A DNA stretch of 34,768 bases, taken from positions 124 through 34,891 of the forward strand of contig NZ_SSOJ01000130.1 of the NCBI RefSeq assembly GCF_029871205.1, read 5' to 3'. Origin of the DNA: Pseudomonas sp. BN417. GTDB lineage: Bacteria; Pseudomonadota; Gammaproteobacteria; Pseudomonadales; Pseudomonadaceae. The notes under the pieces are model-generated. The model saw nothing but the letters and a program-made list of their open reading frames with translations, was not told the DNA's origin and searched no databases. A program made the translations under genes and the position numbers. Positions 7,181-28,763 of this stretch are shown here, one piece after another (the stretch's first letter is position 1; each line of letters starts with the position of its first letter).

Positions 7181-7219
7181 GGCAATTCCCGGCCGCGACG
7201 GCTGTACGAGGTAACCAGC

Positions 7220-8167
7220 ATGCAAATCAAACTCGCCAACCCCCGTGGCTTCTGCGCCGGCGTCGACCGCGCCATCGAGATCGTCAACCGCGCCCTCGAG
7301 GTGTTCGGTCCGCCGATCTACGTGCGCCATGAAGTGGTGCACAACAAGTTCGTGGTCGAAGACCTGCGCGCCCGCGGCGCCGTGTTCGTCGAAGAGCTGG
7401 ACCAGGTGCCGGACAACGTCATCGTCATCTTCAGCGCCCACGGCGTTTCCCAGGCCGTGCGCCAGGAGGCCGCGCGCCGCGGCCTCAAGGTGTTCGACGC
7501 CACCTGCCCGCTGGTGACCAAGGTGCACATGGAAGTCGCGCGCTACAGCCGCGACGGCCGCGAATGCATCCTCATCGGCCATGCCGGGCACCCGGAAGTC
7601 GAAGGCACCATGGGCCAGTACGACGCCAGCAACGGCGGTGCCATCTACCTGGTGGAAGACGAGGAAGACGTCGCCCGCCTGGAAGTGCGCAACCCCGAGT
7701 CCCTGTCCTTCGTCACCCAGACCACCCTGTCCATGGACGACACCAGTCGCGTCATCGACGCGCTGCGCGCCAAGTTCCCCAGCATCGGCGGCCCGCGCAA
7801 GGACGACATCTGCTACGCCACCCAGAACCGCCAGGATGCGGTCAAGCAACTGGCCGGCGAAAGCGACGTGGTTCTGGTGGTCGGCAGCCCCAACAGCTCC
7901 AACTCCAACCGCCTGCGCGAACTCGCCGAACGCATGAACACCCCGGCCTACCTGATCGACGGCGCCGAGGACCTCAAGCGCGAGTGGTTCGACAAGGCAC
8001 AGAAAGTCGGTATCACGGCGGGCGCGTCGGCACCCGAAGTGCTGGTGCAAGGCGTGATCGAACAGCTCAGGGAATGGGGCGCCGAGGTCGCGGTCGAGCT
8101 GGATGGCCGGCCGGAGAATGTGACCTTCTCGATGCCGAAGGAATTGCGGGTGGTCGACGTCGGCTGA
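7220..8167 (+). CDS. ispH: 4-hydroxy-3-methylbut-2-enyl diphosphate reductase
   Basis: IspH (LytB) performs the last step of the MEP isoprenoid pathway, reducing HMBPP to IPP and DMAPP with a [4Fe-4S] cluster. The 315-residue product has the three cluster ligands Cys12 (F-C-A-G-V-D-R), Cys96 (A-T-C-P-L-V) and Cys198 (C-Y-A-T-Q-N-R). It also has the conserved S-N-S-S-N-S active-site loop. I chose ATG 7220 because GAGG lies 8 bases upstream and the family starts [14 protein letters not shown]. An in-frame ATG at 7178 adds residues encoded by REP-adjacent DNA. The gene converges with fimT with only 17 bases between the stops. Confidence 0.98.
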
Positions 8168-8184
8168 GATTCCCCTTTATGCCA

Positions 8185-8700
8185 TCAACATGGACCGGGT
8201 TGTTCCTTGGTACGACGCACCCGGCCTGTAGCACTGATCACTAATTTTCGGACGGCCAGCTTGCCGTCGGCATGGCAGAGCACCAAGGTTCCTGCCTGAA
8301 ATGCTCCGCCGGGCATTGAAGTCCGCCCTGTCGGCATATAACGCACAAATCGCCTCACGGGTGTGTTCCCCTTGATGATCAGCCCGTCGGGCTGCGGGCC
8401 AACCTCAGCCAACACCTGCTCACCTTCGTCCCACCTGGCGTTGTTGTTCTGGTCGGCGTAAACACGCCATCCTGCGGACCAATTCTCGCCCTGGTTGTCG
8501 ACCAGCACCGGGACCCTCCTGGTGATCGAAGCTTGTCTCGCCTGGTTGAAGCTGACGAAGAGCGCGTGGCTTGCCGTGCTCAGTTGGGAGGAGCGTATGA
8601 ACTCTGTCATTGCTGGCACGCCAAGGCTGATGAGTAGTGTGATGAGCGTCAGCGCAACCAGCGCTTCGATGAGCGTGAAGCCGCGAGGGATTCCAGCCAT
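8185..8700 (-). CDS. fimT: Type IV pilus minor pilin FimT (GspH/FimT family)
   Basis: The 171-residue prepilin has a short leader ending MAGIPRG, then F-T-L-I-E-A-L with Glu5 and a hydrophobic N-terminal helix. The F-N-Q-A-R-Q-A-S-I-T-R-R segment matches the GspH/FimT family. The C-terminus reads S-A-T-G-R-V-R-R, so a GRxR motif is present at 159-162. In Legionella and Xanthomonas FimT this motif forms the DNA-binding tail used in natural transformation. Cys142 and Cys171 could form a disulfide. An AGGAGA ribosome binding site lies about 11 bases upstream. The gene stands alone, convergent with ispH and divergent from pilus operon A. A role in DNA binding is inference from the motif. Confidence 0.85.
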   Translation of the reverse strand: MAGIPRGFTLIEALVALTLITLLISLGVPAMTEFIRSSQLSTASHALFVSFNQARQASITRRVPVLVDNQGENWSAGWRVYADQNNNARWDEGEQVLAEVGPQPDGLIIKGNTPVRRFVRYMPTGRTSMPGGAFQAGTLVLCHADGKLAVRKLVISATGRVRRTKEQPGPC

Positions 8701-9053
8701 GGCATCCGTGCTCTCCTGGCGTGAACGAGTGGACGACCTGTCGTCCGTGGTCTTGGCCCGCCCGTCGCCGATGAAAGGACGTCAGTCGGAACCGACCTAT
8801 AAGCTTCTGGAATTGAAGGATTTTCTCAACGTCACCCGATCTTTGGGGCAACGAAGAAATCTCCGGAATTTGGTGGCAGGTCACTTTGTGGCCTGTAGGA
8901 AAGGCGCATCCTATATGCGCGATTGTGCTAAGGCTTAATGCGGACCAGTTGTTTCGCGTGGGGTCTGTCGAGTTATCGAATGTCAGAGCCAAGGCAGGCC
9001 TGACCAAGGCTGTTGTTGGTGTGGGAGTTGCGGCAGCAGTAGGAGGGTGGAGA
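8701..9053. promoter_or_regulatory. Divergent control region between fimT and pilus operon A
   Basis: This 353-base region has lower GC than its surroundings and no gene I can support. It must hold the promoters of fimT (-) and operon A (+), but I find no strong sigma-70 or sigma-54 match. Two operator-like inverted repeats are visible. One is GGACGAC-CT-GTCGTCC at 8731-8746, in the probable fimT leader. The other is GCGCAT-CCTAT-ATGCGC at 8904-8920. Any regulator binding them is unknown. Confidence 0.4.
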
Positions 9054-9134
9054 ATGGGCGAGTTGAAAGGATCTCAACTGAAGTCGAGGGCTGTGATGTC
9101 GAATCCGGCATTCCTCCGGTCGTACAACCAATAA
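9054..9134 (+). CDS. 26-residue small ORF leading pilus operon A
   Basis: An ATG at 9054 follows a perfect AGGAGG (9041-9046) at 7 bases, the best ribosome binding site in this part of the window. The ORF reads M-G-E-L-K-G-S-Q-L-K and ends at TAA 9132-9134. Those last bases overlap the ribosome binding site of the next gene, pilE (AAGGTGA, 9133-9139). The peptide is polar and basic with no membrane segment, prepilin motif or recognised domain. It could be a leader peptide coupling translation into pilE, a small protein, or chance; the ribosome binding site is the main evidence. Confidence 0.4.
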   Translation: MGELKGSQLKSRAVMSNPAFLRSYNQ

Positions 9135-9143
9135 GGTGACCCC

Positions 9144-9536
9144 GTGGGCAGAACGAAACAGGGCGGTTTTACCCTCATAGAACTCATGATTGCGGTCGCG
9201 ATCGTTGGCATCCTGGCTGCAATCGCCTATCCCAGCTACCAGCAATATGTGATTCGTGGGAACCGGGCTGCGGCGCAGGCGCAGATGATGGATATCGCCA
9301 ACCGCCAGCAGCAGTACCTGCTGGCCAATCGTACCTATGCGACCAAGACCCAGTTGACGACCAGCGGCTATGGCCTGCCGAGTGAACTCGTTGGTAAGTA
9401 CGACTACAGCATCACCCTGGGGGCGGGCTCCGTGCCGAGTTACACCATCACTTTCACTGCTGAGGGTTCCCAGTTGAGCGACGGTAACCTGTCCCTTACC
9501 AGCGACGGGGTCAAGGCCCCCTCGAGCAAGTGGTGA
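9144..9536 (+). CDS. pilE: Type IV minor pilin PilE, operon A
   Basis: The 130-residue prepilin has an 8-residue leader ending K-Q-G-G, then [14 protein letters not shown] with Gly-1 and Glu5. It continues with [10 protein letters not shown], typical of PilE-type minor pilins that link the tip complex to the pilin shaft. Start is GTG 9144, with AAGGTGA upstream; the in-frame TAA at 9132 rules out a longer protein. It is the first pilin of operon A and overlaps pilV by GTGA. Unlike the second PilE of this window (22816), it has a standard Gly at the prepilin peptidase site, and it lacks the C-terminal Cys pair seen there. Confidence 0.88.
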
Positions 9537-10108
9537 GCGACATGGTCGATCTTCATTGGCTCCAACGGCAGCGCGGCATGACCTTGATCGAGGTGTTGGT
9601 CACCATCCTCATTCTTTCCATAGGATTGCTCGGGATGGCAGGCCTGCAGGCGCGCCTGCAGCAATCGGAAATTGAAGCCTACCAGCGGTCCCAGGCGTTG
9701 CTGCTGCTCGAAGACATGGCCAATCGCATAGCGTCAAATCGCAACGCGGCATCCAGTTACGTGACCGGTACTGCCAATCCTCTGGGGTCTGGCATGACCT
9801 GTCCGACCACCCTGACCGCCCAGGCAGATCGTGACAAGCAGGAGTGGTGCAACAGCCTGCAGGGTGCAGCCGAGACCAGCGACGGGACCAAGGTCGGGGC
9901 CATGATCGGTGCACGGGGCTGTGTCGAGTCCCTTGGCAGCAATCAGTACATGGTGACCGTGGCATGGCAGGGATTGACGCCGATCTCCGCGCCGCCGTCC
10001 GGAGTTGCCTGCGGTGCCAACAGTTACAACGGTGCGACCGGGGCCAAGTGCGAGTCCGACCGCTGCCGTCGTGTTCTTACAACCATAGTGCGTGTTGCCA
10101 ATCTATGA
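9533..10108 (+). CDS. pilV: Type IV pilus minor pilin PilV, operon A
   Basis: The 191-residue prepilin reads Q-R-Q-R-G, then [21 protein letters not shown]. It has Glu5 and the G-L-L-G-M-A-G-L-Q pattern of the PilV family, the counterpart of GspI. The body contains several Cys residues, including C-E-S-D-R-C near the end, which probably form disulfides. Start is taken as GTG 9533, giving the 4-base GTGA overlap with pilE; GTG 9530 and ATG 9542 are alternatives in the same frame. It ends in an ATGA overlap with pilW. The product should join PilW, PilX and the GspH-type pilin in the tip complex. Confidence 0.88.
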
Positions 10109-11244
10109 CAGAACGTATTCGTCGCAGGGCCCCAGTTCCGTTGCTGTCGGGCCGGCAGCGAGGCTTCGGCCTGGTTGAGCTGATGATCGCTGCCACCATC
10201 AGCCTGCTGATGATGGCGGCCATCCTGACACTCTTTCTCGATGTGTCGCGGACCAACGATGAGATGGCCAAGACCAATGCCCAGATCGAGAACGGCAAAT
10301 TCGCCCTGCAGTTGATCCAGGAAGACCTCGCCCATGCGGGCTTCTGGGACGGCTTCGTTCCCGAATTCGACGACTTCACCATCACCACCGTGCCCGCCGA
10401 CGTCCCGACCACGGTGCCGGGCCCCTGCTCCTGGAGCGCCGCGGATAACACCAATCTGCTCGGGATCTCGGTGCAGGTCTACGATGGCGTGCCTCCCGGT
10501 TGCGACGCGATAGTGACCGACAGGAAAGCCAACACGGATGTCCTGGTGGTCCGTCATGCCGACACCTGTGTCCCGGGTGTCGGCAATTGCGCCGCGCTGG
10601 ACAACACCAAGCTCTACTTCCAGCCGTCCTTCTGCTCGACCGATGCGTCACGCTACGTGTTGAGCAACAGTTCGGCGGCCTTCACCCTGCACAATCGCAA
10701 TTGCACGACGGTGGCGAGCAAGCGCCAGTTCGTTTCCAACATCTACTACATCCGGGATTACTCGGTCACGGCTGGTGATGGCATCCCGACATTGATGCGT
10801 TCCGAGTTCGGGCCCGGGGCGCAACCCAAGGCCGCAGAATCGCTGATCGAGGGTGTCGAGTCGCTACGGGTAGAGCTGGGTATCGACAGCATTGGCGATG
10901 GTGGTGGCGCCAACAACTATCTGGCCGCCGTGACCTTCGCTACCGATTCCAGCGGTAACGCCAATCGTTCGCGCCCGACCAACCGCGGGGATGGGGCACC
11001 GGATGGAACTTTCGTCCGCTGCCCGGCGGCGGGCTGCACGCTGGCGCAGCTAATGGATGTGGTCGCGGTCAAGGTCTATGTGCTGGTGCGAAGCGTCCAG
11101 CCTTCGCCCGGCTACAGTGACGGCAAGGGCTATGCGCTGGGGCAGGCTGCTGCGATTGCCGCCAGCAATGACGCCTACAAACGCCATGTCTATTCCACCA
11201 CTACTCGCCTGGTGAACGTGTCCAGCCGGAGGGAAACCCCATGA
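10105..11244 (+). CDS. pilW: Type IV pilus assembly protein PilW, operon A
   Basis: The 379-residue prepilin has a 20-residue leader ending G-R-Q-R-G, then F-G-L-V-E-L-M-I-A with Glu5. The following helix is rich in Met and Leu. A conserved N-G-K-F-A-L-Q-L-I-Q-E-D-L-A-H-A-G-F segment is typical of PilW (GspJ-like). The C-terminal third contains I-E-G-V-E-S-L-R-V-E-L-G, also a PilW hallmark, shared with the second PilW of the window (V-E-G-V-E-S-L-R-T-S-F-G). It overlaps pilV (ATGA) and pilX (ATGA), so the three are probably translated together. Confidence 0.9.
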   Translation: MTERIRRRAPVPLLSGRQRGFGLVELMIAATISLLMMAAILTLFLDVSRTNDEMAKTNAQIENGKFALQLIQEDLAHAGFWDGFVPEFDDFTITTVPADVPTTVPGPCSWSAADNTNLLGISVQVYDGVPPGCDAIVTDRKANTDVLVVRHADTCVPGVGNCAALDNTKLYFQPSFCSTDASRYVLSNSSAAFTLHNRNCTTVASKRQFVSNIYYIRDYSVTAGDGIPTLMRSEFGPGAQPKAAESLIEGVESLRVELGIDSIGDGGGANNYLAAVTFATDSSGNANRSRPTNRGDGAPDGTFVRCPAAGCTLAQLMDVVAVKVYVLVRSVQPSPGYSDGKGYALGQAAAIAASNDAYKRHVYSTTTRLVNVSSRRETP

Positions 11245-11738
11245 TGTTGGGTCCATCGCGACCAGCCCAGCGAGGCGCCACTTTGGTGGTTGGCCTCATC
11301 ATGTTGCTGATGCTCATGCTGCTGGTTGGCGGCGCTTTCACCATGAGCGGGAGCAGCCTCAAGTCAGTCGGCAACATGCAGGCTCGTGAGCAGGCCCTGG
11401 CGGCCGCCAATATCGCCACGGAGCAGGTGATCGGCTCGCCTTTCACGGACGATCCGACCGAGGAATCCATCGACGTTGATATCAACAATGACGGCACCGC
11501 TGACTATACGGTCAGTATCGCCGAGCCGATTTGCGTCAAGGCGACTGAGCTGTCTGTCGTCGGCGAAGGGCAGGAAAGCGGTGTTCGCTCTAACGTGTCG
11601 ACACCCAGTTCCCAATGGAGCACCGTCTGGGAGCTAGTGGCAACGGTGGATGATCCGGTCACTGGAGCGTCGGCCAAGGTGCGCTCGGGGGTCCGGGTGC
11701 TGCTGTCGCAGCTCGAGAAGCAGAGCGTATGTCCCTAA
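11241..11738 (+). CDS. pilX: Type IV pilus assembly protein PilX, operon A
   Basis: The 165-residue protein begins with a leader ending P-A-Q-R-G, followed by A-T-L-V-V-G-L-I-M-L-L-M and the S-G-S-S-L-K motif of the PilX N-terminal domain. It has no Glu at position 5, as in GspK-type tip pseudopilins. GGAGGG lies 7 bases before ATG 11241. The start overlaps the pilW stop. An E-Q-A-L-A-A-A-N-I-A-T-E segment corresponds to the Q-A-A-E-S-A-L of other PilX proteins but is diverged from the second PilX of the window (18847). A D-I-N-N-D-G-T-A-D stretch resembles a calcium loop; its meaning is unknown. Confidence 0.82.
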   Translation: MMLGPSRPAQRGATLVVGLIMLLMLMLLVGGAFTMSGSSLKSVGNMQAREQALAAANIATEQVIGSPFTDDPTEESIDVDINNDGTADYTVSIAEPICVKATELSVVGEGQESGVRSNVSTPSSQWSTVWELVATVDDPVTGASAKVRSGVRVLLSQLEKQSVCP

Positions 11739-11763
11739 CACAAGGTAGTTTCAGGAGAGCGGC

Positions 11764-14700
11764 ATGAGAACAGGGTTCTTGAAATCAGCGCTGGTGGCCA
11801 CGGCCATGGCGCTCGGGCAACCTGGCATGGCGGAGGACATCGACCTGTTTGTGGGGACTACCGAAACTACGAATGACGCGCCCAACGTCCTGATTGTTCT
11901 CGACAACACCGCTAACTGGAACCAGACCTTCGAAAACCAAAGAGCGGCCTTGGCCTCTGTGCTGGCAGGCTTGCCCGCGAACCAGTTTCGCGTGGGCCTG
12001 ATGGCGTTTACCGAAACAGGCGGGGGCAACAACAATACCGACGGCGCCTATGTGCGGGCGGCTATCCGCTTGATGAACAGCACCAACAAGACTCTCTACC
12101 AGCAACTGTTTCTAAGCATCGATAACAAGGAAACCAAGTCCAACAATGGCAAGGCCGCCCTGGCCATGTACGAGGCTTACCAGTACTTCAAGGCTGCTGC
12201 ACCTTATGCGGGCAATGGCAAGGAGCTTACTGACTATCACCTAAACACTTCGGGGACGGCGGCATCCAATGCGGTGTATGCCCTTTCTGGCAATGCTCTG
12301 GAGTCCAAGAACGCCCTCACTTACAACAACCCGATAGCCTCAGGGTGCGCCAAGAACTTCATCATCTATATCAGCAATGGCGCCGCCCAGGAGAACACCA
12401 GCAACAGGACTGTCGCTTTCGACGCCCTGAGTCGTGCGGGGGGGCGCACCACCGTCATTCCCATCTCGCCCACCGGGTCGCAGGACAGTGTGGCGGACGA
12501 ATGGGCCCGCTTCATGAAAACGAGCAGCCTCGGCGTAGTCACCTATACCCTGGACGTGGACAGGGTGACCAACGGGCAGGGCCCAGGCTGGAGCGCTCTG
12601 CTTAAGAGCATGGCCGGCGTCAGCGGCGGCAAGTACTTCTCCGTCAGCAGTTCGGGTACCCAACTTGCCGATGCCCTCAAAACCTCGTTCTCGGAGATCC
12701 AGGCGGTCAACAGCGCCTTCGCCTCGGTGAGTTTGCCGGTCAGCGTGAATACCCAGGGCACCTACTTGAATCAGGTCTTCATCGGCATGTTCCGCCCCGA
12801 TGAGAATCTGCTCCCGCGCTGGCAGGGGAATCTCAAACAGTACAAGCTGCGCCGCACCAATGGTAATGGTGAGCTTCGACTGCACGATGCCAATGGCAAC
12901 GTTGCCATCAACACCTCGACCAACTTTATAACCGGGTGTGCCAGAAGTTTCTGGACGCCCTCGGATACTGACACTTATTGGGCGAACTCATCCGTCCAGA
13001 ATAACTGCCCGACCGTGCCAGACTCGGATATCTCCAACTCGCCAGACGGCAATGTGGTGGAGAAGGGGGCACAGGGTTATCTGTTGCGCAGCAGTACCAC
13101 TCGCACCGTCTACACCTGCAGCCCGACCTTCGCTGACTGCAATAATACGCTGACCCCCTTCAACACGGATAACACCGACATCAGTTCGACCCTGCTTGGC
13201 GTGGCCAACAGCACCGAGCGCACTACCCTGATCAACTGGGCGCGCGGTCTGGATACCCAGGATGAGGACGTAGATGCGGTCACCACGGCCGAGATGCGCC
13301 GCACCGCCCATGGCGATGTCGTGCATTCACGGCCGGTGGCGATTGACTATGGCACTGTGACCACCCCGAATGTGGTGGTGTTCTACGCCGGCAACGACGG
13401 CGTGTTCCGCGCCATCAATGGTAACCGGACGGGCACCAATGCCGGCAATGAACTCTGGTCCTTCGTTCCGCCGGAGTTCTACGGCAAGCTCAACCGGCTG
13501 CGGCAGAACACCCAGACCATCAGCTTCAACGGCAGCACCGGGGGGCAGCCGAAGGACTATGGCATGGATGGCCCTATCACGGCGTTCCGCGGAACCATCA
13601 GCGGATCCGAAAAGACCTTCATCTATGCAGGCATGCGCCGGGGTGGGAGGGCACTTTACGCGTTCGATGTGACGAGCCCGAGCACCCCAGTGCTGAAGTG
13701 GAAGGTGGGTTGCCCCAACCTCACCAATGACAACAACTGCAGTAGCAGCGTGATGCAGGATATCGGCCAGACCTGGTCAAGTGCCATGGTGCTCAAGGCC
13801 CAGGGCTACGGTGGCGGCAATTCTCCGCTATTGATCATGGGTGGTGGCTACGACAACTGCGAAGACATCGACACCGGTACCGCCAACCACGACTCTTCTT
13901 GCTCTTCCGGCAAGGGACGGCGGATCTACGTGTTGGACGCCAATACCGGCAGCGTGCTGCAAACCTTCCAGACCAAGCGCGGTGTGGTGGGGGACGTCAC
14001 CGTAGTACCCAACAGTGCTGGCTTCGCTCAGTACGCCTATGCGGCTGACCTGGGCGGCAATGTCTACCGCATCACCATTGGCAACAATGCACCTGACGCC
14101 TGGGGCTTCACTCGGATTGCCTCGCTGGGCTGTTCTGATGGCGGCACCGGTTGTGCGATCAACCGCAAGTTCATGTTCGCGCCAGAAGTTGTCGCCTCGG
14201 GCGACAGCTACTACCTGCAACTGGGCTCAGGCGACCGCGAGAAGCCCCTCAGCAGCTATACCGCAACCGCGGGCCTGGCCAACTACTTCTTTAATCTCAG
14301 GGACCGGCCCACGCTATCCAGTTGGCTTGGGTCGGACGGTACTTGTACCGACAGTGGCGACAGTGTCATCTGCCTCAATTCGCTCCTGCCGATCACCAGC
14401 AGCGCGACCCCGACCCAGTCGGAACTGAACTCCAAGCCCAAGGGCTGGTATCTGGGGCTGGCGGCGTCCGAGCAGGTTGTCACTTCGGCAATCACGGTAT
14501 TCGGGCAGGTGATATTCAATACCCATCAACCGAGGCCGCTGGATCCGAACGCCTGCTCCGGCCTTGGCACCAACCGCGCCTATAACATCGCCTACAAGAA
14601 TGGGGCGGGCCTGGACGGAGAACGCTATGACGTGCTCGACGGCGGCGGGTTGTCGCCGTCCCCGGTAGGGGGAGTCGTGGAGCTGGACCCTGAACCAGGT

Positions 14701-14817
14701 GGTGGCTCGGAGGAATTGCCGTTCGTCTGTACCCTCGACTGTTGGGAGCCGGACGATGTGGTCACCACCATTACGCAGCCCAAGGGACGCGTCTACTGGA
14801 GCATCGACCGAGAATGA
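11764..14817 (+). CDS. pilY1: PilY1-type pilus tip adhesin A, without metal-site residues
   Basis: The 1017-residue secreted protein has a signal peptide (1-23, ending G-M-A). Its N-terminal von Willebrand A-like domain is followed by the C-terminal PilY1 beta-propeller (about 510-960), with Y-A-G-N-D-G-V-F-R-A-I-N and Y-A-A-D-L-G-G-N-V-Y-R. PilY1 caps the T4P tip with the minor pilins and acts in adhesion, surface sensing and control of retraction. The MIDAS positions are replaced: D47-N-T49-A-N51 instead of DxSxS, N-G-K-A instead of G-G-T-P near 128-131, and S-N205-G instead of T-D-G. The propeller loop before Y-A-A-D-L-G-G-N (749-759) has no acidic residue where calcium-binding PilY1 proteins have several. 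AGGAGAG precedes the ATG. It ends in an ATGA overlap with the next pilin. The DNA is visibly lower in GC than ileS or clpB. Confidence 0.88.
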   Translation: MRTGFLKSALVATAMALGQPGMAEDIDLFVGTTETTNDAPNVLIVLDNTANWNQTFENQRAALASVLAGLPANQFRVGLMAFTETGGGNNNTDGAYVRAAIRLMNSTNKTLYQQLFLSIDNKETKSNNGKAALAMYEAYQYFKAAAPYAGNGKELTDYHLNTSGTAASNAVYALSGNALESKNALTYNNPIASGCAKNFIIYISNGAAQENTSNRTVAFDALSRAGGRTTVIPISPTGSQDSVADEWARFMKTSSLGVVTYTLDVDRVTNGQGPGWSALLKSMAGVSGGKYFSVSSSGTQLADALKTSFSEIQAVNSAFASVSLPVSVNTQGTYLNQVFIGMFRPDENLLPRWQGNLKQYKLRRTNGNGELRLHDANGNVAINTSTNFITGCARSFWTPSDTDTYWANSSVQNNCPTVPDSDISNSPDGNVVEKGAQGYLLRSSTTRTVYTCSPTFADCNNTLTPFNTDNTDISSTLLGVANSTERTTLINWARGLDTQDEDVDAVTTAEMRRTAHGDVVHSRPVAIDYGTVTTPNVVVFYAGNDGVFRAINGNRTGTNAGNELWSFVPPEFYGKLNRLRQNTQTISFNGSTGGQPKDYGMDGPITAFRGTISGSEKTFIYAGMRRGGRALYAFDVTSPSTPVLKWKVGCPNLTNDNNCSSSVMQDIGQTWSSAMVLKAQGYGGGNSPLLIMGGGYDNCEDIDTGTANHDSSCSSGKGRRIYVLDANTGSVLQTFQTKRGVVGDVTVVPNSAGFAQYAYAADLGGNVYRITIGNNAPDAWGFTRIASLGCSDGGTGCAINRKFMFAPEVVASGDSYYLQLGSGDREKPLSSYTATAGLANYFFNLRDRPTLSSWLGSDGTCTDSGDSVICLNSLLPITSSATPTQSELNSKPKGWYLGLAASEQVVTSAITVFGQVIFNTHQPRPLDPNACSGLGTNRAYNIAYKNGAGLDGERYDVLDGGGLSPSPVGGVVELDPEPGGGSEELPFVCTLDCWEPDDVVTTITQPKGRVYWSIDRE

Positions 14818-15359
14818 GGCTTTCGTTCCAAACCGGCGGTGAAGCGGCGTCGACCAGGCGGCGTCGCGCAAGCGGCTTTACCCTGATCGAGCTCATGGTG
14901 ACCGTGGCAGTCCTGGCCGTTCTGATCAGCCTGGCCATCCCGTCGTTCGTTGATGTCACCCTGGGCAGCAAGTTGCGCGCGCAGGCGAACGACCTGGTGG
15001 CGGCGGTTTCGCTTGCCCGCAGCGAAGCGATCAAGCGCAACGAGCGGGTAACGCTGTGCGCTTCCACGAATGGATCGAGTTGCCTGTCTTCCGGCGGTTG
15101 GCATCAGGGCTGGATCATGCGTACTACGGACGGCACGGTAATCGGGGTTCATGCCGCATCCCCCAGTGGATTCCAGATCACCGATACCGACGGTGGCGCA
15201 CTGAGCGTCGATCTCCTGCCGTCGGGTGCCGCCTCGGACAGTCTTGATCTCAAGGTCTGCCGATCATCGCCCTCGGTCGGGGACCAGGAGCGGCTGGTGA
15301 AAATCAGCCTCACCGGTCGGGCCTACGTGACCAAGACCACCACAGGCAGCTGCTCCTGA
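14814..15359 (+). CDS. GspH/FimT family minor pilin (FimU-like), operon A
   Basis: The 181-residue prepilin has an unusually long leader of 21 residues with four consecutive Arg, ending [15 protein letters not shown] with Glu5 follows. The V-S-L-A-R-S-E-A-I-K-R-N segment is diagnostic of the GspH/FimT family. Four or more Cys residues in the globular part suggest disulfides. The C-terminal L-T-G-R-A-Y lacks the second Arg of the GRxR motif present in the lone FimT. ATG 14814 overlaps the pilY1 stop. In operon B the equivalent gene is first, here it is last. By analogy with FimU it should be part of the tip-priming complex. Confidence 0.85.
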   Translation: MRLSFQTGGEAASTRRRRASGFTLIELMVTVAVLAVLISLAIPSFVDVTLGSKLRAQANDLVAAVSLARSEAIKRNERVTLCASTNGSSCLSSGGWHQGWIMRTTDGTVIGVHAASPSGFQITDTDGGALSVDLLPSGAASDSLDLKVCRSSPSVGDQERLVKISLTGRAYVTKTTTGSCS

Positions 15360-15436
15360 TCGATAGCCGCGCAGATCAGATATCCCCCTCTGAGCGAGCA
15401 CCCACCACTTTTGCTGCCGTAGAATTCCCGCTCTAG

Positions 15437-15459
15437 GCCAGTGGGGCGCTCCCACTGGC
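15437..15459 (+). terminator. Hairpin after pilus operon A
   Basis: A perfect 9-base stem, GCCAGTGGG / CCCACTGGC, encloses a GCGCT loop, 78 bases after the last gene of operon A and 60 before thiO. There is no T run, so it may be a factor-dependent end, an mRNA stabiliser or part of the thiO leader. A TAGAAT at 15420-15425 could be a thiO -10, but no good -35 accompanies it. Confidence 0.35.
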
Positions 15460-15519
15460 AATCAAGAGCGACTGCCGCTGCGTACGTCGCCCCGGATCTA
15501 TTGATGTACTGGAGGTTCC

Positions 15520-16611
15520 ATGCGCGTTTTGCTGGTCGGTGGGGGAGCTATCGGGTTGCTGTCGGCGTACCTGTTGGCACGGGACGGAGTCGAGGTCTGC
15601 TTGTTGGACAAGGGGCCTTGTGGCCGCGAGTCGTCCTGGGCTGGCGGGGGCATCGTTTCGCCGCTCTATCCCTGGCGCTATTCCTCGGCCGTGACGGCAC
15701 TGGCGCATTGGTCCCAGGACTTCTACCCCCAGTTTGGCCAGCGCTTGTTCGCTGAAACCGGAATAGACCCGGAGGTCTACGAGACCGGCCTGTATTGGCT
15801 GGATCTGGACGACGAGGCCGAGGCCCTGGCGTGGGCCGCTCGCGAAGGTCGGCCGCTGGCGCCGGTGGCGATGGACCGGGTGCATGCCGCCGTGCCGCCG
15901 CTCGGGCCGGGTTTCCACCATGCCATCCATATGGCCGGCGTGGCCAATGTGCGTAACCCACGCCTGACGCGCGCGCTGCGCGAGGCCTTGCTGCGCCTGC
16001 CGAATGTGACCCTGCATGAGTCCTGCGAGGTGCGGGGTTTTATTCGCGATGGTCAGCGGATCACCGGGGTGAGCACCGCTGGCGGAGAGTTCCTGGCGGA
16101 CCGCGTGGTGCTCTGCGCTGGCGCCTGGAGCGGTGAACTGCTCGCTAGCCTGGGTCTGTCCTTGCCGGTGGAACCGGTGAAGGGGCAGATGATTCTCTTC
16201 AAGTGTGCCGAGGACTTCCTGCCGGCCATGGTTCTGGCGAAAGGGCGCTATGCGATCCCGCGGCGGGACGGTCATATCCTCGTGGGCAGCACACTGGAGC
16301 ATGCCGGTTTCGACAAGACCCCCACTAGCGAGGCCCTGGAAAGCCTGAAGGCATCCGCCTTTGAATTGCTGCCGCAATTGACGGACGCCGAGCTGGTCGG
16401 GCACTGGGCTGGCTTGCGTCCGGGCTCGCCGGAGGGGATTCCCTTTATCGGCCCGGTGCCCGGGGCAGAAGGGCTGTGGCTGAACTGCGGCCATTACCGC
16501 AACGGGCTGGTGCTGGCGCCGGCATCGTGCCGGTTGCTGGCGGACCTGATGCTCGGGCGCGAGCCGATCATCGATCCGCAGCCATACGCACCGGCGGGTC
16601 GTCTGGGGTAA
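15520..16611 (+). CDS. thiO: Glycine / D-amino-acid oxidase ThiO
   Basis: The 363-residue FAD-dependent oxidoreductase of the DAO family has the dinucleotide-binding G-G-G-A-I-G at 7-12 and the acidic end of the second strand (C-L-L-D-K-G). The C-terminal W-A-G-L-R-P-G-S-P-E-G-I-P-F-I-G and G-H-Y-R-N-G segments are typical of ThiO. ThiO oxidises glycine to the imine used in making the thiazole of thiamine. GGAGG lies 4 bases before the ATG. In P. aeruginosa thiO is also next to the minor pilin genes and pilR, so this is a conserved neighbour without a known link to pili. Here it separates the two pilin operons. Confidence 0.93.
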   Translation: MRVLLVGGGAIGLLSAYLLARDGVEVCLLDKGPCGRESSWAGGGIVSPLYPWRYSSAVTALAHWSQDFYPQFGQRLFAETGIDPEVYETGLYWLDLDDEAEALAWAAREGRPLAPVAMDRVHAAVPPLGPGFHHAIHMAGVANVRNPRLTRALREALLRLPNVTLHESCEVRGFIRDGQRITGVSTAGGEFLADRVVLCAGAWSGELLASLGLSLPVEPVKGQMILFKCAEDFLPAMVLAKGRYAIPRRDGHILVGSTLEHAGFDKTPTSEALESLKASAFELLPQLTDAELVGHWAGLRPGSPEGIPFIGPVPGAEGLWLNCGHYRNGLVLAPASCRLLADLMLGREPIIDPQPYAPAGRLG

Positions 16612-16629
16612 CGCAGGGTCTGCTGCGGC

Positions 16630-16660
16630 CGGGGCTTGCGAGCGATGATGGCAGGCCCCG
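16630..16660 (+). terminator. Possible terminator hairpin after thiO
   Basis: CGGGGCTTGC (16630-16639) pairs with GCAGGCCCCG (16651-16660), ten pairs with one G-T, around an 11-base loop. It lies 18 bases after the thiO stop. No clear T run follows, so termination is uncertain. Confidence 0.4.
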
Positions 16661-16726
16661 CACTGGCGTTCTGTTAAGCCGTCCTCGGCAATCTTGTGGG
16701 CAAGCTCGCAGTTCACAAAACACAAT

Positions 16727-16755
16727 TTAAAACGAACGTACCATTAAGCTACTAT
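16727..16755 (+). promoter_or_regulatory. Candidate sigma-70 promoter of pilus operon B
   Basis: In a locally AT-rich stretch after thiO, TTAAAA (16727-16732) and TACTAT (16750-16755) are spaced by 17 bases. Transcription from here would give a leader of about 125 bases before fimU. Confidence 0.45.
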
Positions 16756-16789
16756 GCGCGCCTACATTGCCGCTGGTCGCTGATTTTGG

Positions 16790-16799
16790 ACCGCTCGTC
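16790..16799 (+). promoter_or_regulatory. AlgR-like binding site upstream of fimU
   Basis: ACCGCTCGTC differs at one position from the AlgR consensus ACCGTTCGTC. AlgR is known to activate the fimU-pilVWXY1Y2E operon of P. aeruginosa. The site lies 88 bases before the fimU start and about 35 bases downstream of the candidate -10, so either the real promoter differs or AlgR acts from within the leader. A ten-base match is weak evidence by itself. Confidence 0.4.
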
Positions 16800-16819
16800 A
16801 TGGAAAGGTCGGCAAGGTC

Positions 16820-16856
16820 GGAGCAGGAAGCTCCGCGGCGTGAGCTCCGGCTCACG
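16820..16856 (+). promoter_or_regulatory. Structured leader of fimU mRNA with GGA loop
   Basis: Two hairpins stand in tandem. GGAGC-AGGAA-GCTCC (16820-16834) exposes a GGA in its loop, as in RsmA/CsrA sites. CGTGAGC-TCCG-GCTCACG (16839-16856) has a 7-base stem and a UNCG-type tetraloop. A third short dyad, GGTCCGGACC, follows before the ribosome binding site GAGGG (16876-16880). Confidence 0.4.
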
Positions 16857-16886
16857 CAGGTCCGGACCATTCTATGAGGGCAGGGA

Positions 16887-17354
16887 ATGTCGCAGCGAGG
16901 TTTCACGCTGATCGAACTGATGGTCACGCTTGTCGTGCTCGCAGTATTGATCGGATTGGCAGCACCGAACTTCTCCCAGATGCTTCGCGAGAACCAGGCA
17001 GCGGCAGAACTTGAAGCGTTCTCCGGCATGCTCGGCTATGCGCGCCGGGAAGCGGTCCAGGGGGCTCAGACCGTAAGGCTCAAGGGGCCGCTGGCGGCCG
17101 ATGGCAGCTGGCAGTTGTTGCGCGAGCGGGACAGCCTGGAGCTGCGCCGCTTCCCGGCTCTGACCTCATATGTGGCCGGACCGGCGGGGCTGCAAGACAT
17201 TCTCTTCGACTCGCAGGGCCGCCTGATCAGCGCGGCCAGGATGGCTTTCACCCTGGCGTTAAAAGACACGTCACTGGGCTGCACCACTTTCAATCGCAGC
17301 GTTTCCATCGAGCTGTCCGGTTCGATTTCTCTGCAGAAGGCAAGCTGCCAATGA
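16887..17354 (+). CDS. fimU: Minor pilin FimU (GspH/FimT family), operon B
   Basis: The 155-residue prepilin has a minimal leader MSQRG, then F-T-L-I-E-L-M-V-T-L-V-V-L-A-V-L with Glu5. The L-G-Y-A-R-R-E-A-V segment is of GspH/FimT type. Two Cys residues (G-C-T-T-F-N and the penultimate residue) probably form the conserved FimU disulfide. GAGGG lies 6 bases upstream of the ATG. It is first in operon B, as in P. aeruginosa, and overlaps pilV by ATGA. It is clearly diverged from the GspH-type pilin of operon A (14814), and its C-terminus lacks a GRxR motif. Confidence 0.87.
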   Translation: MSQRGFTLIELMVTLVVLAVLIGLAAPNFSQMLRENQAAAELEAFSGMLGYARREAVQGAQTVRLKGPLAADGSWQLLRERDSLELRRFPALTSYVAGPAGLQDILFDSQGRLISAARMAFTLALKDTSLGCTTFNRSVSIELSGSISLQKASCQ

Positions 17355-17788
17355 GTGCGTCGTCTCAGCGAGGTGCCTCGCTCATCGAGGTCCTCGTCGC
17401 CGTGCTCCTCTTCTCCATTGGTGTATTGGGTCTGGCTGCCATGCAGCTCACCGCGCTGAAGGCGAACCAGACCGCGTCCGTACGTTCCCATGCGACTTTC
17501 CTGGCCTACGAGATGGCGGATCGCATGCGCGCGGCGCGGGGAGATGCGCAGGCGGGCTTCTACAACCTGGCGGTCGGCGCCGCCCTGCCCTGTGATCCGG
17601 CGAAGGAAACCTGCCTGCCTTTTCAGCGGGACCTGGGGGAGTGGCGCGCCAACCTTGCCAGGCAACTCCCGGAGGGGAATGGCGGTGTGGTGCAGAACGG
17701 TGACCGCTTCACGGTGATCGTGCAATGGAACGAGGAGCGGGTGGGCGGTAATGCCGCTCAGCAATTCTCCTTCGTCACGCAGATTTGA
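17351..17788 (+). CDS. pilV: Type IV pilus modification protein PilV, operon B
   Basis: The 145-residue prepilin has an 8-residue leader ending S-S-Q-R-G, followed by A-S-L-I-E-V-L-V-A-V-L-L-F-S-I-G-V-L-G-L-A. The mature protein would therefore begin with Ala rather than Phe or Met. The A-D-R-M-R-A-A-R segment after the helix and the final V-I-V-Q-W-N-E-E are typical of PilV. Cys pairs occur at L-P-C-D-P and E-T-C-L-P. It is shorter than PilV of operon A (191 residues). It is followed by pilW after a 10-base gap. Confidence 0.9.
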   Translation: MSASSQRGASLIEVLVAVLLFSIGVLGLAAMQLTALKANQTASVRSHATFLAYEMADRMRAARGDAQAGFYNLAVGAALPCDPAKETCLPFQRDLGEWRANLARQLPEGNGGVVQNGDRFTVIVQWNEERVGGNAAQQFSFVTQI

Positions 17789-17798
17789 CGGGGTGCGC

Positions 17799-18830
17799 AT
17801 GCGCAAGCAACGCGGCTTGAGCCTGGTGGAGCTGATGGTGGCCATGGTGATCGGCCTGGTCATCAGCCTGGCGGTCCTCCAGGTCTTCATCAGCAACAAG
17901 AACACCTTCCTCCTCCGGGGGGCAGCGGGAAAGCTGCAGGAAAACGGGCGCTTCGCCCTGCAGTACCTGGCCTCCGAACTGCGCCCTGCTGGAGTGGGGG
18001 TAGGGACTCGGCTCGACGAGGACGATATCTGCGTGGTGGCCGCCAAAAGCGACTCCGCGGAATGGAGCGCCATGAACCGCCCCATCTGGGGAAGGCGCAT
18101 CACGGCAACCGGCGGCCTCGGGGCGGTGGGCACCGACCAGCTGGCGATCTTCGCCAATGACGGTTGCGAGTCCTTTCTCACGGCCGGCGAGCTGCTCAAA
18201 CCGTCGCTCAATGCGAATCTCAAGGTCACGGCCTATTGCCCGAGCATGCAGCAGGACCACGCGGTGATGGTGCTGGACATGGAGAAAGCGGTGGTCATCC
18301 GGATCACCAACAAGCCGAATTCGTCCGGCAACGGCCAGGTGACGCTGACCCATGCCGCGAGCAACAACGACAAGAACGCCAAGTGCGGTGGCTTCAAGTT
18401 CTCGGATATCCAGTTCAACGCCCCGGCGCGGGTGGTGGGCTTCGCCTACAGGACCTTCTATGTGGCGGATACCGGCCGCGTCACGGCGACCGGGCAGCCC
18501 ATCCGCGCCTTGTTCGTCCGCGATGCGGCGCAGGTTCCAGCGCAGACCAACGAAGTCGTGGAAGGCGTTGAGTCGCTGCGCACCAGTTTCGGCGTGGCCG
18601 CGGACAACAGCGTCGGCGTACAGACCTACCTGAGCCCGGCCGAGGTGGAAGCGGCCAACCGTTGGGACGATGTCCGCACGGTGAAGCTCGATCTGCTGCT
18701 GACCAGCAATGATCGAGTAGCGGGAGCCCAGGACCAGGCTGTCCACTTCGCGGGGGCGGCAGTGGCGGCGGATGGGCGCCTGCGCCAGGTATTCAGCACG
18801 GTGGTGGCCCTGCGTAACCGGGTCGACTGA
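17799..18830 (+). CDS. pilW: Type IV pilus assembly protein PilW, operon B
   Basis: The 343-residue prepilin has leader MRKQRG, then L-S-L-V-E-L-M-V-A-M-V-I-G-L with Glu5. It continues with L-Q-V-F-I-S-N-K-N-T-F and L-Q-E-N-G-R-F-A-L-Q-Y-L, the PilW hallmark, and V-E-G-V-E-S-L-R-T-S-F-G in the C-terminal part. I chose ATG 17799 because it places the leader at normal length; GTG 17793 would add two residues. The gene stands 10 bases after pilV and 16 before pilX. Confidence 0.92.
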   Translation: MRKQRGLSLVELMVAMVIGLVISLAVLQVFISNKNTFLLRGAAGKLQENGRFALQYLASELRPAGVGVGTRLDEDDICVVAAKSDSAEWSAMNRPIWGRRITATGGLGAVGTDQLAIFANDGCESFLTAGELLKPSLNANLKVTAYCPSMQQDHAVMVLDMEKAVVIRITNKPNSSGNGQVTLTHAASNNDKNAKCGGFKFSDIQFNAPARVVGFAYRTFYVADTGRVTATGQPIRALFVRDAAQVPAQTNEVVEGVESLRTSFGVAADNSVGVQTYLSPAEVEAANRWDDVRTVKLDLLLTSNDRVAGAQDQAVHFAGAAVAADGRLRQVFSTVVALRNRVD

Positions 18831-18846
18831 TGAGGCAAGGATAAGC

Positions 18847-19359
18847 ATGCAAAAGCAAAAAGGAGCGGTGCTGCTGGTTTGCCTGATCGCTCTCCTGGCA
18901 TTGACCGTGCTGGGCGTTACGGCGATGTCCGGCAGCACCCTGCAGGAACGGATGGCCGGCGGCGCGCGGGACTACAACGTGGCGTTCCAGGCGGCCGAGA
19001 GCGCCTTGCGGGTGGGCGAGGCCTATGTGCGCCAACAGGTGGAGGCCAGCGTCGATCCCACCCAGCTGTTCCTGGCCAGCACCGATTGCCCGGCGGTTAC
19101 GACCGCACAGTGGACGCCGCCCGCCGAACTCAACAGCCAGCCGCGAAAGCCGGTTTGCAGGGTTCGCAATTACTACGGTGCGTCGGGGGGCGCGACCACC
19201 TTCGTTTGCGAAACCGACGGCTCGATCGCCGAGAACCGCGCGTTCGACTGCCTGAGCCGGACCTATCTGTTCAACGTCGAAGCCACCGGTTACGCCGGCG
19301 GGGATGCCGAAGTGCACCTGCGTTCCACCGTGGCCATTGCCATCCGCAGCCAGAACTGA
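18847..19359 (+). CDS. pilX: Type IV pilus assembly protein PilX, operon B
   Basis: The 170-residue protein has leader MQKQKG, then A-V-L-L-V-C-L-I-A-L-L-A-L-T-V-L-G-V-T-A-M and S-G-S-T-L-Q-E-R-M-A-G, the PilX N-terminal domain. The conserved F-Q-A-A-E-S-A-L-R-V-G-E follows. There is no Glu5, as expected for the GspK-like tip subunit. Four Cys residues lie in the globular domain. AGGA precedes the ATG by 6 bases. This is a much more typical PilX than the operon A version. Confidence 0.9.
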   Translation: MQKQKGAVLLVCLIALLALTVLGVTAMSGSTLQERMAGGARDYNVAFQAAESALRVGEAYVRQQVEASVDPTQLFLASTDCPAVTTAQWTPPAELNSQPRKPVCRVRNYYGASGGATTFVCETDGSIAENRAFDCLSRTYLFNVEATGYAGGDAEVHLRSTVAIAIRSQN

Positions 19360-19375
19360 TCGAAGGGAGACACGG

Positions 19376-22300
19376 ATGATCGGCTCGAAATATTTCTTTG
19401 CGGTACGGGCATTGCTGGCCGGCCTGCTGACCGCCGCGGTCAGCCACAGCGCCCTGGCGGCATTCGTGCCCGGGCAGGTGCCGTTGAACCTGGGGGGGCA
19501 GGTCGAACCCAACCTCATGTTCATCCTGGATGACTCGGGCTCCATGCGCTGGGGCTACCTGCCGGACGATCTGCGCCCGGCCTATCTGGAAAGCACGAAG
19601 GAATGGGAACGGAGCGAAGAGTGTCAGGTGCGTGGCAGCTACGCCGGCAAGAACCTGCATTTCTGTCGGAAGACCGGTCACCGCTACCTGGCTTCCAGCC
19701 ACCTGAACAAGTCCTACTACAACCCCGCCGTGCAGTATCTGCCGCCGATCAAGAGCGATGGACAACGCTATGCCAATGCGAGCTTCGCCGCGGCGTCCGT
19801 AAACGGTTACGCCGCTGGTGGCCAGGCGGTCAACCTCGGCACGAGCTACATGGCGATCATGGACGACTTTTACGCGCCTAACAGCAGAGACTGCAGGAGT
19901 TGCACGCTTTACGAAGGCTTTGCCGTGGGCCCGAATAGTAGCGCCGGCGCGGCCTTCTACTACGAGTTCGTTGGCGGGGGCAGCTGCGCCAGCAATCCCC
20001 GCCAGGATGCCTGTTATACCGAGCGTAGCGTGGGCGCCGACGAGCAACAGAACTTCGCCAACTGGTTCTCCTACTATCGGACCCGCATGATGTCGGCCAA
20101 GGCCGGGGTCAGCCAGGCATTTTCCACGCTGCCCGGGGACGTCCGGGTTGGCTACGGTGCGATCAACCTGACTAGGAACACCGTCGACTCGGGCAAGACC
20201 GATACCCTGGTGCGCGGTGTGCGCCGCTTCGAGGGCACCGGGCGCTCCGAGTTCTATGACTGGCTCTTCGCGACCAACGCCGAAGGGGGCACCCCACTGC
20301 GCAAGGCGCTGGGCGATGCCGGCGAATACTACTCGCGCAAGGACGAGGCCGGCCCCTGGAGCTCGACGCCGGGCCAGACCGGCGGCAAGGAGTATGCCTG
20401 CCGCCAGAGCTACACCATCCTGACCACGGATGGTTACTGGAACGGTGACGCGGCCTCCACCGAGGGCGCGCGCGCCAACGTGGATAACCGCAACGGCCCG
20501 ACCATCAGCGGGCCGGACGGGCAGACCTATCGCTATGTGCCCAAGGCACCATTCAGCGACAGCGCGGACAACACCCTGGCGGACGTCGCCATGTACTACT
20601 GGAACCGCGACCTGCATGACACCCTGGCCAACCGCGTGCCGACCGATCCGGCGGACCCTGCGTTCTGGCAGCACATGGTGACCTTCGGTGTAGGTCTGGG
20701 CATGAGTGGCAGCATCGATCCGCAGACCGCGTTCGCCGCGGTCAAGAATGGCGCTTCGCTGACCTGGCCCAGCCCGACCAGCAGCGACCCGGCGAAGCTG
20801 GATGACCTGCTGCACGCCGCGGTCAACGGTCGTGGCGGTTTCTTCAGCGCCCAGGACCCGCAGCAGTTCGCCACCGCCCTGGGCGAGACCCTGGCGTCGA
20901 TCAGCGATCGTACCGGGTCCAACACCTCGGCCGTGCCCAACGCGCGCCGCCTGGACAGCAACACCCTGGTTTACGAGGCCTTCTATACCAGCTCGGACTG
21001 GTCCGGAAAGCTGCTGGCGAAAAAGCCCAAGCAGACCAGTGCCGGCATCGTTTTCGAGGAGGTCTGGGAGGGGGGGCAGAAGCTCGGGCGCAGCTCGCGC
21101 AGCCTGTTCACCCACGACGGCGCGGCAGGCGCCAACCATGGCCAGGCGTTGAACTGGGCCGGCCTGAGCGCAGACCTCAAGGCGCACTTCAATAACGATG
21201 AGGTGCTGTTCAACTACCTGATGGGCGACCGCACGAACGAGGCGCCGGCCGGCAGGAAATTGCGCAAGCGCTCCACCCTGCTCGGCGATATCGTCAACTC
21301 CACCCTGGTATTGGCCAACAAGCAGGACTGGGGCTTCAATGGCCGGGTACCCGTCGCCAGCGGCGGCCAGACCTACGCCGAGTTCGTCGCAGCCAAGTCG
21401 AGCAAGTCGCCGGTGCTGTTCGTCGGCGCCAACGATGGCTTCCTGCACGCCTTCAACGCCAACAACGGCAACGAACTCTTCGCCTACATGCCCAACGGCG
21501 TGTTGGGCAACGTCAAGCTCCTGGCCAACAGCGACTACAAGCACCGCTATTTCGTGGACGGCAAACTGCACATCCGCGACGCTCGCCTGAACGGTGCCTG
21601 GCGTACCGTGCTCCTCGGCAGCCTCGGGGCTGGTGGCAAAAGCGTCTTCGCCCTGGACGTCACGGACGCCTCCGGCAGCACCGGATTCAGTGCCAGCAAG
21701 GTGCTGTGGGAGATCAAGGACGACGCCGATCTGGGCTACAACTTCGGCGAGCCATTGGTCGGACGCATGAAGGACGGCAGCTGGGCGGCGATCTTCGGCA
21801 ACGGCTATGGCAGCACCAACGAGGACTCGGTGCTGTTCATCGTCGACCTGGCGACTGGCGCCGTGAACAAGGTGCGCGCGGGCAAGGCCACGGGCGGCCT
21901 GTCCAGCCCGTCCTTCGTGTATGCCACCGACAGCTCGGGCAACATCTACGTGAAGGATGTGTATGCCGGTGATCTCGGCGGCAACCTGTGGAAGTTCAAC
22001 CTCAAGGCCAATGAATCCGGCGCTGACGATTTCGAGGTCAGCCTGGGCTCCGGCACCAAACCGGAGCCGCTGTACGTCGCCAAAGACACCGCGGGCACGC
22101 ACCAGCCGATCACCGTCAAGCCGGAAATCGCCTACCACCCGGACGGCTATGCGCAGGGGGCCATCGTCTATTTCGGCACCGGCCGACTCTATACCTCAGG
22201 GGATGTGGTCGACACGACCAAACAAACCTTCTATGGCATCTGGGACAAGCTGGCGAGCAACGGCTCCTCCACCGCCTTCAGCGGCCGGTCGGACCTCGAG

Positions 22301-22819
22301 CAACGTTCGATCCTGTTCGAGGGCGAGGCCTTCGATCGCGATGTGCGGGTGCTCGACGCACCGGCCACCGCCATTGACTGGAGCAAGAAACGCGGCTGGT
22401 ATCTCGACCTGACCTCTCCGGTCAGGGGCGCCCAGGGCGAGCGGGTAATCTTCGCGCCGCGCATCCTGCTCAATCGCCTGGTCATCGAAACCGCCATCCC
22501 CTCTGCCGACCCCTGTCTGGCCGGCGGTTCCGGCTGGACCATGGTGCTCGACTTGGCCACTGGCGGGCGGCTCAACTATGTCCTGCTGGACCTGAACAAG
22601 GACGGCAAATTCACCGATGCAGACATGGTCACGGTCGGCGACCAGAAGCTCCCGCCGTCCGGCATCGGCTCTTCCGGCAGCATACCCACCGGCTCGTTCG
22701 ACCTGATCGATCCGCAGAAGTACTGGCTGTGCCGAGGCACCGGGGTGGATGACTGCATTCCGGCCGCCAATACCCTCAATGTTCTCGAAGGCCGTCAGTC
22801 CTGGAACCAGATTCGATGA
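19376..22819 (+). CDS. pilY1: PilY1 type IV pilus tip adhesin B
   Basis: The 1147-residue secreted tip protein has a signal peptide (1 to about 28, H-S-A-L-A). Its von Willebrand A domain keeps the MIDAS residues D52-D-S54-G-S56, T306 (G-G-T-P-L) and D352 (T-T-D-G-Y). The C-terminal propeller contains [12 protein letters not shown] and [12 protein letters not shown]. The loop D852-S-S-G-N856 to D861 lies where the second calcium site (851-859) of P. aeruginosa PilY1 is reported. A full 12-position EF-hand loop, D1072[11 protein letters not shown]1083, lies near the end. Length matches P. aeruginosa PilY1. Many Cys residues sit in the A-domain. Start ATG 19376 follows AAGGGAGA. It ends in an ATGA overlap with pilE. 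Confidence 0.94.
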
Positions 22820-23232
22820 GAAGCAGCAAGGCATTCACCCTGATTGAACTGATGATCGTGGTGGCGGTGATCGGCATCCTCGCCGCGATCGCCTATCCCA
22901 GCTACACGGAGTATGTGAAGCGGGGCAAGCGCGCCGAGGTGAAGGCGGTCTTGATGGAGGGGGCGCAGGCGCTGGAGCGTTATTACTCCACCCACGGCTC
23001 CTACCTGGATTCCGAAGGCAACTTTGCGGATACCTTCGCCACCCAGGCCCCGGCTTCAGGGGCGGCCAACTACACCATCGCCGCCCAGGGCGCACCGACC
23101 GCGACCTCCTTCCAGTTGCGTGCGACCCGTGCCGGCAGCATGGCCGGCGACCCTTGCGGCGACTTCCAGATCAGCCACACCGGCGAGCGCACGCTGGCCA
23201 ACGCCACGCGGACGGTGGCCCAGTGCTGGTAG
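22816..23232 (+). CDS. pilE: Type IV minor pilin PilE, operon B, with Ala at -1
   Basis: The 138-residue prepilin starts MRSSKA, then [16 protein letters not shown] with Glu5. The [16 protein letters not shown] segment is typical of PilE. The residue before the cleavage point is Ala (codon GCA) rather than the near-invariant Gly. Cys residues at G-D-P-C-G-D-F and the penultimate position should form the C-terminal disulfide loop. ATG overlaps the pilY1 stop. It is the last gene of operon B; no PilY2 gene lies between pilY1 and pilE, unlike in P. aeruginosa. Confidence 0.9.
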
Positions 23233-23281
23233 ACGGCAGAGGGGCTCGCCCCGGTTGTAGAGATTCCATCTCAATCGGCGT

Positions 23282-28740: not shown

Positions 28741-28763
28741 GTTGCAAGGCATGCGGCAATGAA

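Follow-up and report, generated by a model that had tools for sequence, protein, structure and literature searches.

The tip of a type IV pilus is thought to set what the pilus binds and senses. Variation of pilus genes and their horizontal exchange at fixed sites have reportedly been described by Giltner et al. in 2011 under the title 'Pseudomonas type IVa pilin island', a study which is said to cover pilA alleles and single minor-pilin sets, and not a stable tip set together with an exchangeable one. According to published work on P. aeruginosa and M. xanthus, the minor pilins and PilY1 prime the pilus and are located, or proposed to be located, at its tip (PMC5979040, PMC7541494). The P. 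aeruginosa genes are described as the operon fimU-pilVWXY1Y2E, of which the minor pilins differ between strains PA14 and PAO1, with 61-75% similarity (PMC5979040, PMC4064291), and PilY1 of this species is described as having an intact MIDAS (PMC9210963). Genomes with several PilY1 are known from Myxococcus, Xylella, Neisseria and Kingella (PMC13190605). In M. xanthus, clusters 1-3 are described as complete minor-pilin/PilY1 sets that share a single major pilin and a single T4aP machine; either cluster 1 or cluster 3 is enough for pili, and a phosphorelay acts on pilY1.1 and pilY1.3 with opposite effect (PMC7541494, PMC9109919). Xylella fastidiosa is reported to carry paralogous minor-pilin sets, three PilY1 and a FimT with the GRxR motif which is the DNA receptor, and its two minor-pilin sets are mostly opposite in their effect on movement and competence (PMC9956873).

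The locus analysed here consists of the same gene families as the P. aeruginosa operon, but P. aeruginosa is described with one set only, which includes pilY2. With M. xanthus it shares the presence of several complete sets alongside a single major pilin and a single machine. The M. xanthus PilY1 are of other types, two of them with DUF4114, and the clusters are not described in those reports as a stable set and an exchange slot at one locus. The likeness to Xylella lies in two minor-pilin sets, several PilY1 and a GRxR FimT; the Xylella sets, however, are placed in two separate regions and the report speaks of no block exchange (PMC9956873). In the open-licence literature, searched by title and abstract start, no description of two tip sets at this locus was found, and the open-licence literature also gave no stable set beside an exchange slot and no PilY1 family with a uniformly rewritten MIDAS. 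Multi-tip pili are already known from Myxococcus and Xylella.

Anatomy of the locus

The window, i.e. the whole stretch of 34,768 nucleotides that was analysed, comes from a Pseudomonas related to P. resinovorans, and the nearest named thiO genes are those of Pseudomonas sp. BN102 (97%) and then P. resinovorans (91%). Between ispH (7178-8167) and pilR (23694-25031, minus strand) lie, in this order, a fimT-like pilin gene, set A (9144-15359), thiO and set B (16887-23232), as listed in Table 1. Two complete minor-pilin/PilY1 operons on the plus strand had been predicted from the letters alone, and this was confirmed by the open reading frames, all of them intact, and by Pfam and NCBIfam scans. 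In both sets PilV (TIGR02523), PilW (PF16074), PilX (PilX_N, PF14341), PilE (ComP_DUS type) and a GspH/FimU-type pilin (PF12019) were matched, together with a PilY1 having a C-terminal beta-propeller (PF05567). The genes inside each set overlap or almost touch, so each set is probably one operon. The lengths given earlier for PilY1-A (1017) and for PilY1-B (1147, from 19376) are correct, but PilV-A has 192 residues from 9530 and not 191. The start of pilW-A is at 10105, the listed open reading frame from 9844 being 5'-extended, and the GspH pilin of set A starts near 14814. The absence of pilY2 from the window was also borne out, as the end of pilY1-B (22819) overlaps the start of pilE-B (22816) and leaves no room for it.

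Table 1. Features of the two-set locus, with positions in the window
Feature	Position	Strand	Basis
fimT-like GspH pilin, divergent from set A, C-terminal GRVR (GRxR)	8185..8700	-	PF12019 and motif
Leader/promoter region of set A	8701..9143	+	alignment; recognisable in 8/8 genus genomes including BN411
pilE-A, PilE-type minor pilin	9144..9536	+	profile match
pilV-A	9530..10108	+	TIGR02523 above cut-off
pilW-A	10105..11244	+	PF16074
pilX-A	11241..11738	+	PF14341
pilY1-A, 1017 aa, VWA fold with rewritten MIDAS, propeller	11764..14817	+	PF05567
GspH/FimU-type pilin of set A	14814..15359	+	PF12019
Block divergent from BN102 (61-84% identity per 200 bp)	9330..15519		edges in pilE-A and at thiO start codon
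thiO, right edge of A block	15520..16611	+	TIGR02352 above cut-off
Set B leader: conserved TACTAT, CCGCTCGTC-like box, GGA-loop hairpin 16820-16834	16612..16886	+	alignment; putative elements
fimU-B	16887..17354	+	PF12019
pilV-B	17351..17788	+	TIGR02523 above cut-off
pilW-B	17799..18830	+	PF16074
pilX-B	18847..19359	+	PF14341
pilY1-B, 1147 aa, VWA, intact MIDAS (DDSGS, T306, D352), propeller, EF-hand-like loop	19376..22819	+	PF05567
pilE-B	22816..23232	+	PF16732, PF07963

The gene order is E-V-W-X-Y1-H in set A and H-V-W-X-Y1-E in set B. The shared V-W-X-Y1 core with swapped ends had been seen rightly, but the circular permutation suggested along with it is ruled out by the gene order, in which only the ends are exchanged. 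The true circular permutation of the B order (E-H-V-W-X-Y1) is the content of slot A in Pseudomonas sp. BN411. Set A was also expected to be lower in GC, and its genes indeed have 59-63% as against 62-66% for those of set B; in all eight genomes of the genus having both, the PilY1 of slot A lies below PilY1-B in GC. In the gap between pilE-B and pilR, which is much shorter in BN102, a 182-nt sequence occurs twice in direct orientation (97%, spacing 206 nt) at 23400-23787, where the 3' end of pilR is partly duplicated and more short repeats are present. BN102 in turn carries about 7.2 kb of extra DNA at about 28661-28753 of the window.

The fimT-like pilin ends in GRVR, and the GRxR motif was present in 10 of the 10 listed loci that have a divergent fimT beside slot A, while the GspH pilin inside set A of the window is without it. 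This gene could possibly encode a competence pilin beside an exchange slot.

The two PilY1 proteins differ at the metal site. In the VWA domain of PilY1-B the DxSxS and the non-contiguous T and D are present, and D52, S54, S56, T306 and D352 were invariant in an alignment of 50 rows. PilY1-A has the VWA fold and does not show this combination of residues, a mapping which rests on the strand order in two models since hhalign aligned only the C-terminal halves of the two proteins. The site is rewritten throughout the sampled PilY1-A family, and the EF-hand-like loop of PilY1-B is absent from PilY1-A. The tip formed with PilY1-A is predicted to be metal-independent, and a PilY1 family in which the metal site of the VWA domain is consistently rewritten would offer a natural test of whether PilY1 needs the MIDAS metal.

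Age and distribution of the two sets

PilY1 was the one set gene for which trees were built. Of the 140 rows, those identical in their last 600 residues were collapsed to give 121, L015_3p (730 aa) was excluded, and a FastTree phylogeny of 120 proteins over 910 columns was rooted at the midpoint, several long branches being flagged. In this tree the midpoint split separates PilY1-A from PilY1-B with 100% local support. The two PilY1 types are thus deeply separated, and a recent duplication is ruled out, as the original prediction had held; a placement of A and B as sister copies, looked for in PilY1, was not found. PilY1-A clusters with the PilY1 of other E-V-W-X-Y1-H sets, whose carriers belong to other genera of the family or, in the case of G043, to another family of the order. 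The same side of the tree holds 15 P. aeruginosa-like minus-strand PilY1, the remaining ones lying on the side of B. Relatives of PilY1-A also exist in betaproteobacteria, at 57-60% identity among the 120 of 3003 protein database matches listed.

The P. aeruginosa set presumably lies in the same ispH-thiO-pilRS neighbourhood as the sets of the window and on the opposite strand. Distribution at this place was surveyed in the best 80 of 576 named thiO loci, several stretches being cut by contig ends. Two PilY1 genes were present in 4 of these 80, one plus-strand PilY1 in 23 (in one case a 150-aa piece), one minus-strand PilY1 in 26 and none in 27. Relatives with a single set on the opposite strand, the arrangement that the original prediction named for P. 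aeruginosa, do exist, and the ispH-thiO-pilRS neighbourhood is present in the 26 named minus-strand relatives.

Within the genus of the window, the A+B pair occurs in 8 of 18 genomes. Eight of the 18 have a B-type PilY1 at at least 81%, and slot A is occupied in all eight; A and B share a contig in seven of the pair genomes and are on two contigs in P. resinovorans (G004). Nine of the remaining ten genomes have a minus-strand set at thiO, one of which (G015) carries an extra A set elsewhere. P. boanensis (G010) has E-H-V-W-X-Y1 ahead of thiO, at a contig end. In the wider sample of 398 family genomes, A-type PilY1 (E up to 1e-60, identity down to 37%) was detected in 46, belonging to 9 of 19 genera, and B-type PilY1 at at least 70% in 10, all ten of which are A carriers too. 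P. cavernae (G372) and the MAG L008 each carry an A-like set and a B-type set in tandem ahead of thiO; in P. benzenivorans (L015) an A-like set is followed by a set of another type. In G026 no set other than A is present at ispH-thiO, and G043 has A between ispH and pilRS; at other loci (L157, L159, L160, L163) the flanking contexts of A differ, as judged from the ORF listing. In a PF05567 scan, A was the sole match in 9 of the 46 A-carrying genomes, which suggests that set A can suffice by itself; this status as the only PilY1 is not watertight, since A escaped the model in 4 of the 46.

Carriage of close A relatives on plasmids was ruled out, as only 8 of 72,556 plasmid records matched, the best at 31.5% identity. 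Putida-like loci (L027, L028, L031 and others) retain remnants (fimT, W, E) between ispH and thiO, with no PilY1 detected there. The genomes G025, G074, G084, G122 and G198, all of one genus (g9), gave six or seven PF05567 matches, some of them pieces of one gene, and have several PilY1 genes at scattered places in addition to A.

Slot A compared between close relatives

Upstream of the slot, the window and BN102 are 97.4% identical over 5.3 kb. Measured per 200 bp, the identity is 90-100% up to about position 9330, falls to 61-84% up to about 15515 and is again 96% from the thiO start codon; thiO and set B are 92.7% identical overall and pilRS 97.3%. The edges of the block, in pilE-A (around codon 62) on the left and at the start of thiO on the right, are sharp within tens of bases. 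Synonymous divergence (dS by Nei-Gojobori) is 0.52 in pilE-A and 1.14-1.99 in the other five genes of set A, as against 0.17 in ispH, 0.14 in fimT, 0.25 in thiO, 0.11-0.26 in set B, 0.11 in pilR and 0.07 in pilS, so that the mean dS of A is about eight to nine times that of B. The dS of A exceeded that of ispH, pilR and pilS in 6 of 7 genome pairs, these pairs being mutually non-independent. No excess in A was seen between G011 and G016, and exchange would therefore not be constant.

Another case is that of BN411 and G009. Their identity amounts to 95.1% across 12.4 kb on the upstream side and to about 96% across 12.7 kb on the downstream side, with a dS of 0.07-0.14 in the B genes; in slot A there was no blastn match between them, the gene order differs and the break starts at the ispH-fimT border. 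The leader between fimT and pilE-A can be recognised in the eight genus genomes including BN411, and the genes thus seem to have been replaced behind a kept leader. The PilY1-A and PilY1-B trees are in conflict: in the AU test, the window+BN102 pairing of the flanks was rejected for PilY1-A (p 7e-8) and the BN102+G009 pairing of A was rejected for PilY1-B (p 1e-40).

Set A differs between close relatives as a sharply bounded block, likely by way of exchange through homologous recombination. The suggestion that A was acquired from elsewhere, which had rested on GC, now has much firmer grounds in the dS excess, the sharp edges and the AU tests. Surface proteins often diverge fast, and one could argue that there was no exchange and that A simply evolves faster in place, under relaxed or diversifying selection or local mutation. 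This is extremely improbable, because the excess sits in synonymous sites, where faster protein evolution alone cannot explain it, and because sharp edges, conflicting trees and the different gene order in the BN411 slot all speak against it. The dN/dS of the A genes is 0.10-0.20 between the window and BN102, a rough value as dS above 1 is near saturation, and 0.03-0.11 between G011 and G016. Being well under 1, these ratios indicate that A has been kept functional; with intact open reading frames and a dN/dS of 0.03-0.20, a relic is unlikely.

It should be noted here that set B is not exempt. Between the window and G009, dS is 0.79-1.22 in B and 1.31 in thiO, compared with 0.37-0.58 in ispH, pilR and pilS, which shows that set B, too, apparently underwent an older exchange. 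Within pilY1-B, at 19541-19940, the identity to BN102 falls locally to 76-78%; this corresponds to about residues 56-188, an insert that follows the first VWA strand of the model, and could perhaps reflect a small swap at the domain level inside this more stable set. In view of the raised dS and of this stretch, B is more stable than A and not strictly fixed. The gene fimT was saturated for dS in several of the older genome pairs, so the exchange zone is wider than A.

One pilus machine and two possible tips

The genome of the window is a draft of 166 contigs. It gave two PF05567 PilY1 matches, both at this locus, one PilQ and one PilB above cut-offs and one PF00114 pilin, the major pilin; two further PilB/GspE-like ATPases and other secretin matches all stayed below cut-offs. 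The multi-tip arrangement, in which several sets go with a single major pilin and a single machine, is thus found here, and the gene content is consistent with two tips on one shaft and motor. On balance we favour, as reasonably probable, the reading that the locus holds two long-separated tip sets, that the A block is likely exchanged and B is more stable, and that one machine would be used by the cell to build two alternative tips. The five minor pilins and the PilY1 of each set would prime assembly and stay at the tip. Tip B would be the usual metal/calcium-type tip and tip A a VWA adhesin working without a MIDAS metal; by analogy with M. xanthus the cell could assemble pili with either, and what the pilus grips would be set by whichever set is expressed. 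Slot A would be exchanged by recombination in its flanks, with the 5' part of pilE or fimT on the left and thiO on the right, perhaps using DNA imported through the adjoining FimT. Such swapping would provide the cell with a second type of tip that is exchangeable.

Other explanations of the pair have to be weighed against this. The two sets could divide tasks, one serving twitching and adhesion and the other, probably A beside fimT, DNA uptake, the exchange of A being a by-product. The GRxR of the divergent fimT, known from the DNA-receptor FimT (PMC8897410, PMC9956873), fits such a division, as do the two Xylella sets with their mostly opposite roles in movement and competence (PMC9956873). 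However, fimT adjoins single sets as well, the GspH pilin of set A in the window has no GRxR and nothing in the present data ties A to competence, which makes a division of this kind rather unlikely. That both sets do the same job, A being a backup whose divergence has no functional meaning, would agree with the many relatives that live with one set or none at this place and with the older exchange in B. It is nevertheless quite improbable, given that 8 of 18 genus genomes have retained the pair, that purifying selection acts on A and that metal-site residues consistently set the two PilY1 types apart throughout their families. A further thought is that set A serves another filament system, type II secretion or a second pilus machine, and not the main T4aP, for which the extra ATPases and secretins below cut-offs could provide. 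We regard this as very improbable: A comprises all the genes of a T4aP tip, PilY1 among them, no more than one PilB, one PilQ and one PF00114 pilin reach the cut-offs, and A sits between ispH and pilRS, a place that A-type sets fill alone in G026 and G043.

Returning to two alternative tips on one machine, a stronger version can be put forward tentatively and with more doubt than conviction. In it, slot A would be a dedicated tip exchange site: a conserved metal-dependent tip would be kept for core functions, a metal-independent one would repeatedly be swapped wholesale behind a retained promoter by transformation through FimT, and close strains would grip different surfaces with the same pilus. 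Wherever a stable tip set is paired with an exchangeable one, tip specificity would be open to simple deletion tests, and tip complexes would join the surface structures that block recombination diversifies.

Both leaders contain putative regulatory elements, neither of them significant by itself. An AlgR-like nonamer, CCGCYCGTC, stands once upstream of each operon and is conserved in the leaders; it was picked after viewing the alignment, and its 2 occurrences in the window compare with 1.9 expected. The B leader carries the hairpin GGAGC-AGGAA-GCTCC, which has GGA in its loop, shows changes among relatives that preserve the pairing, and resembles RsmA/CsrA-binding sites. There was no Rfam match to a structured RNA within 8000-24000 at E up to 1, and a scan for sigma-70-like promoters returned no site where shuffles gave a mean of 3.3, so that it is uninformative. 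The GGA-hairpin pattern was matched in 6 of 9 genomes, with no match in P. cavernae, and in the leader alignment G009 and BN411 have the same hairpin letters, though outside the search pattern.
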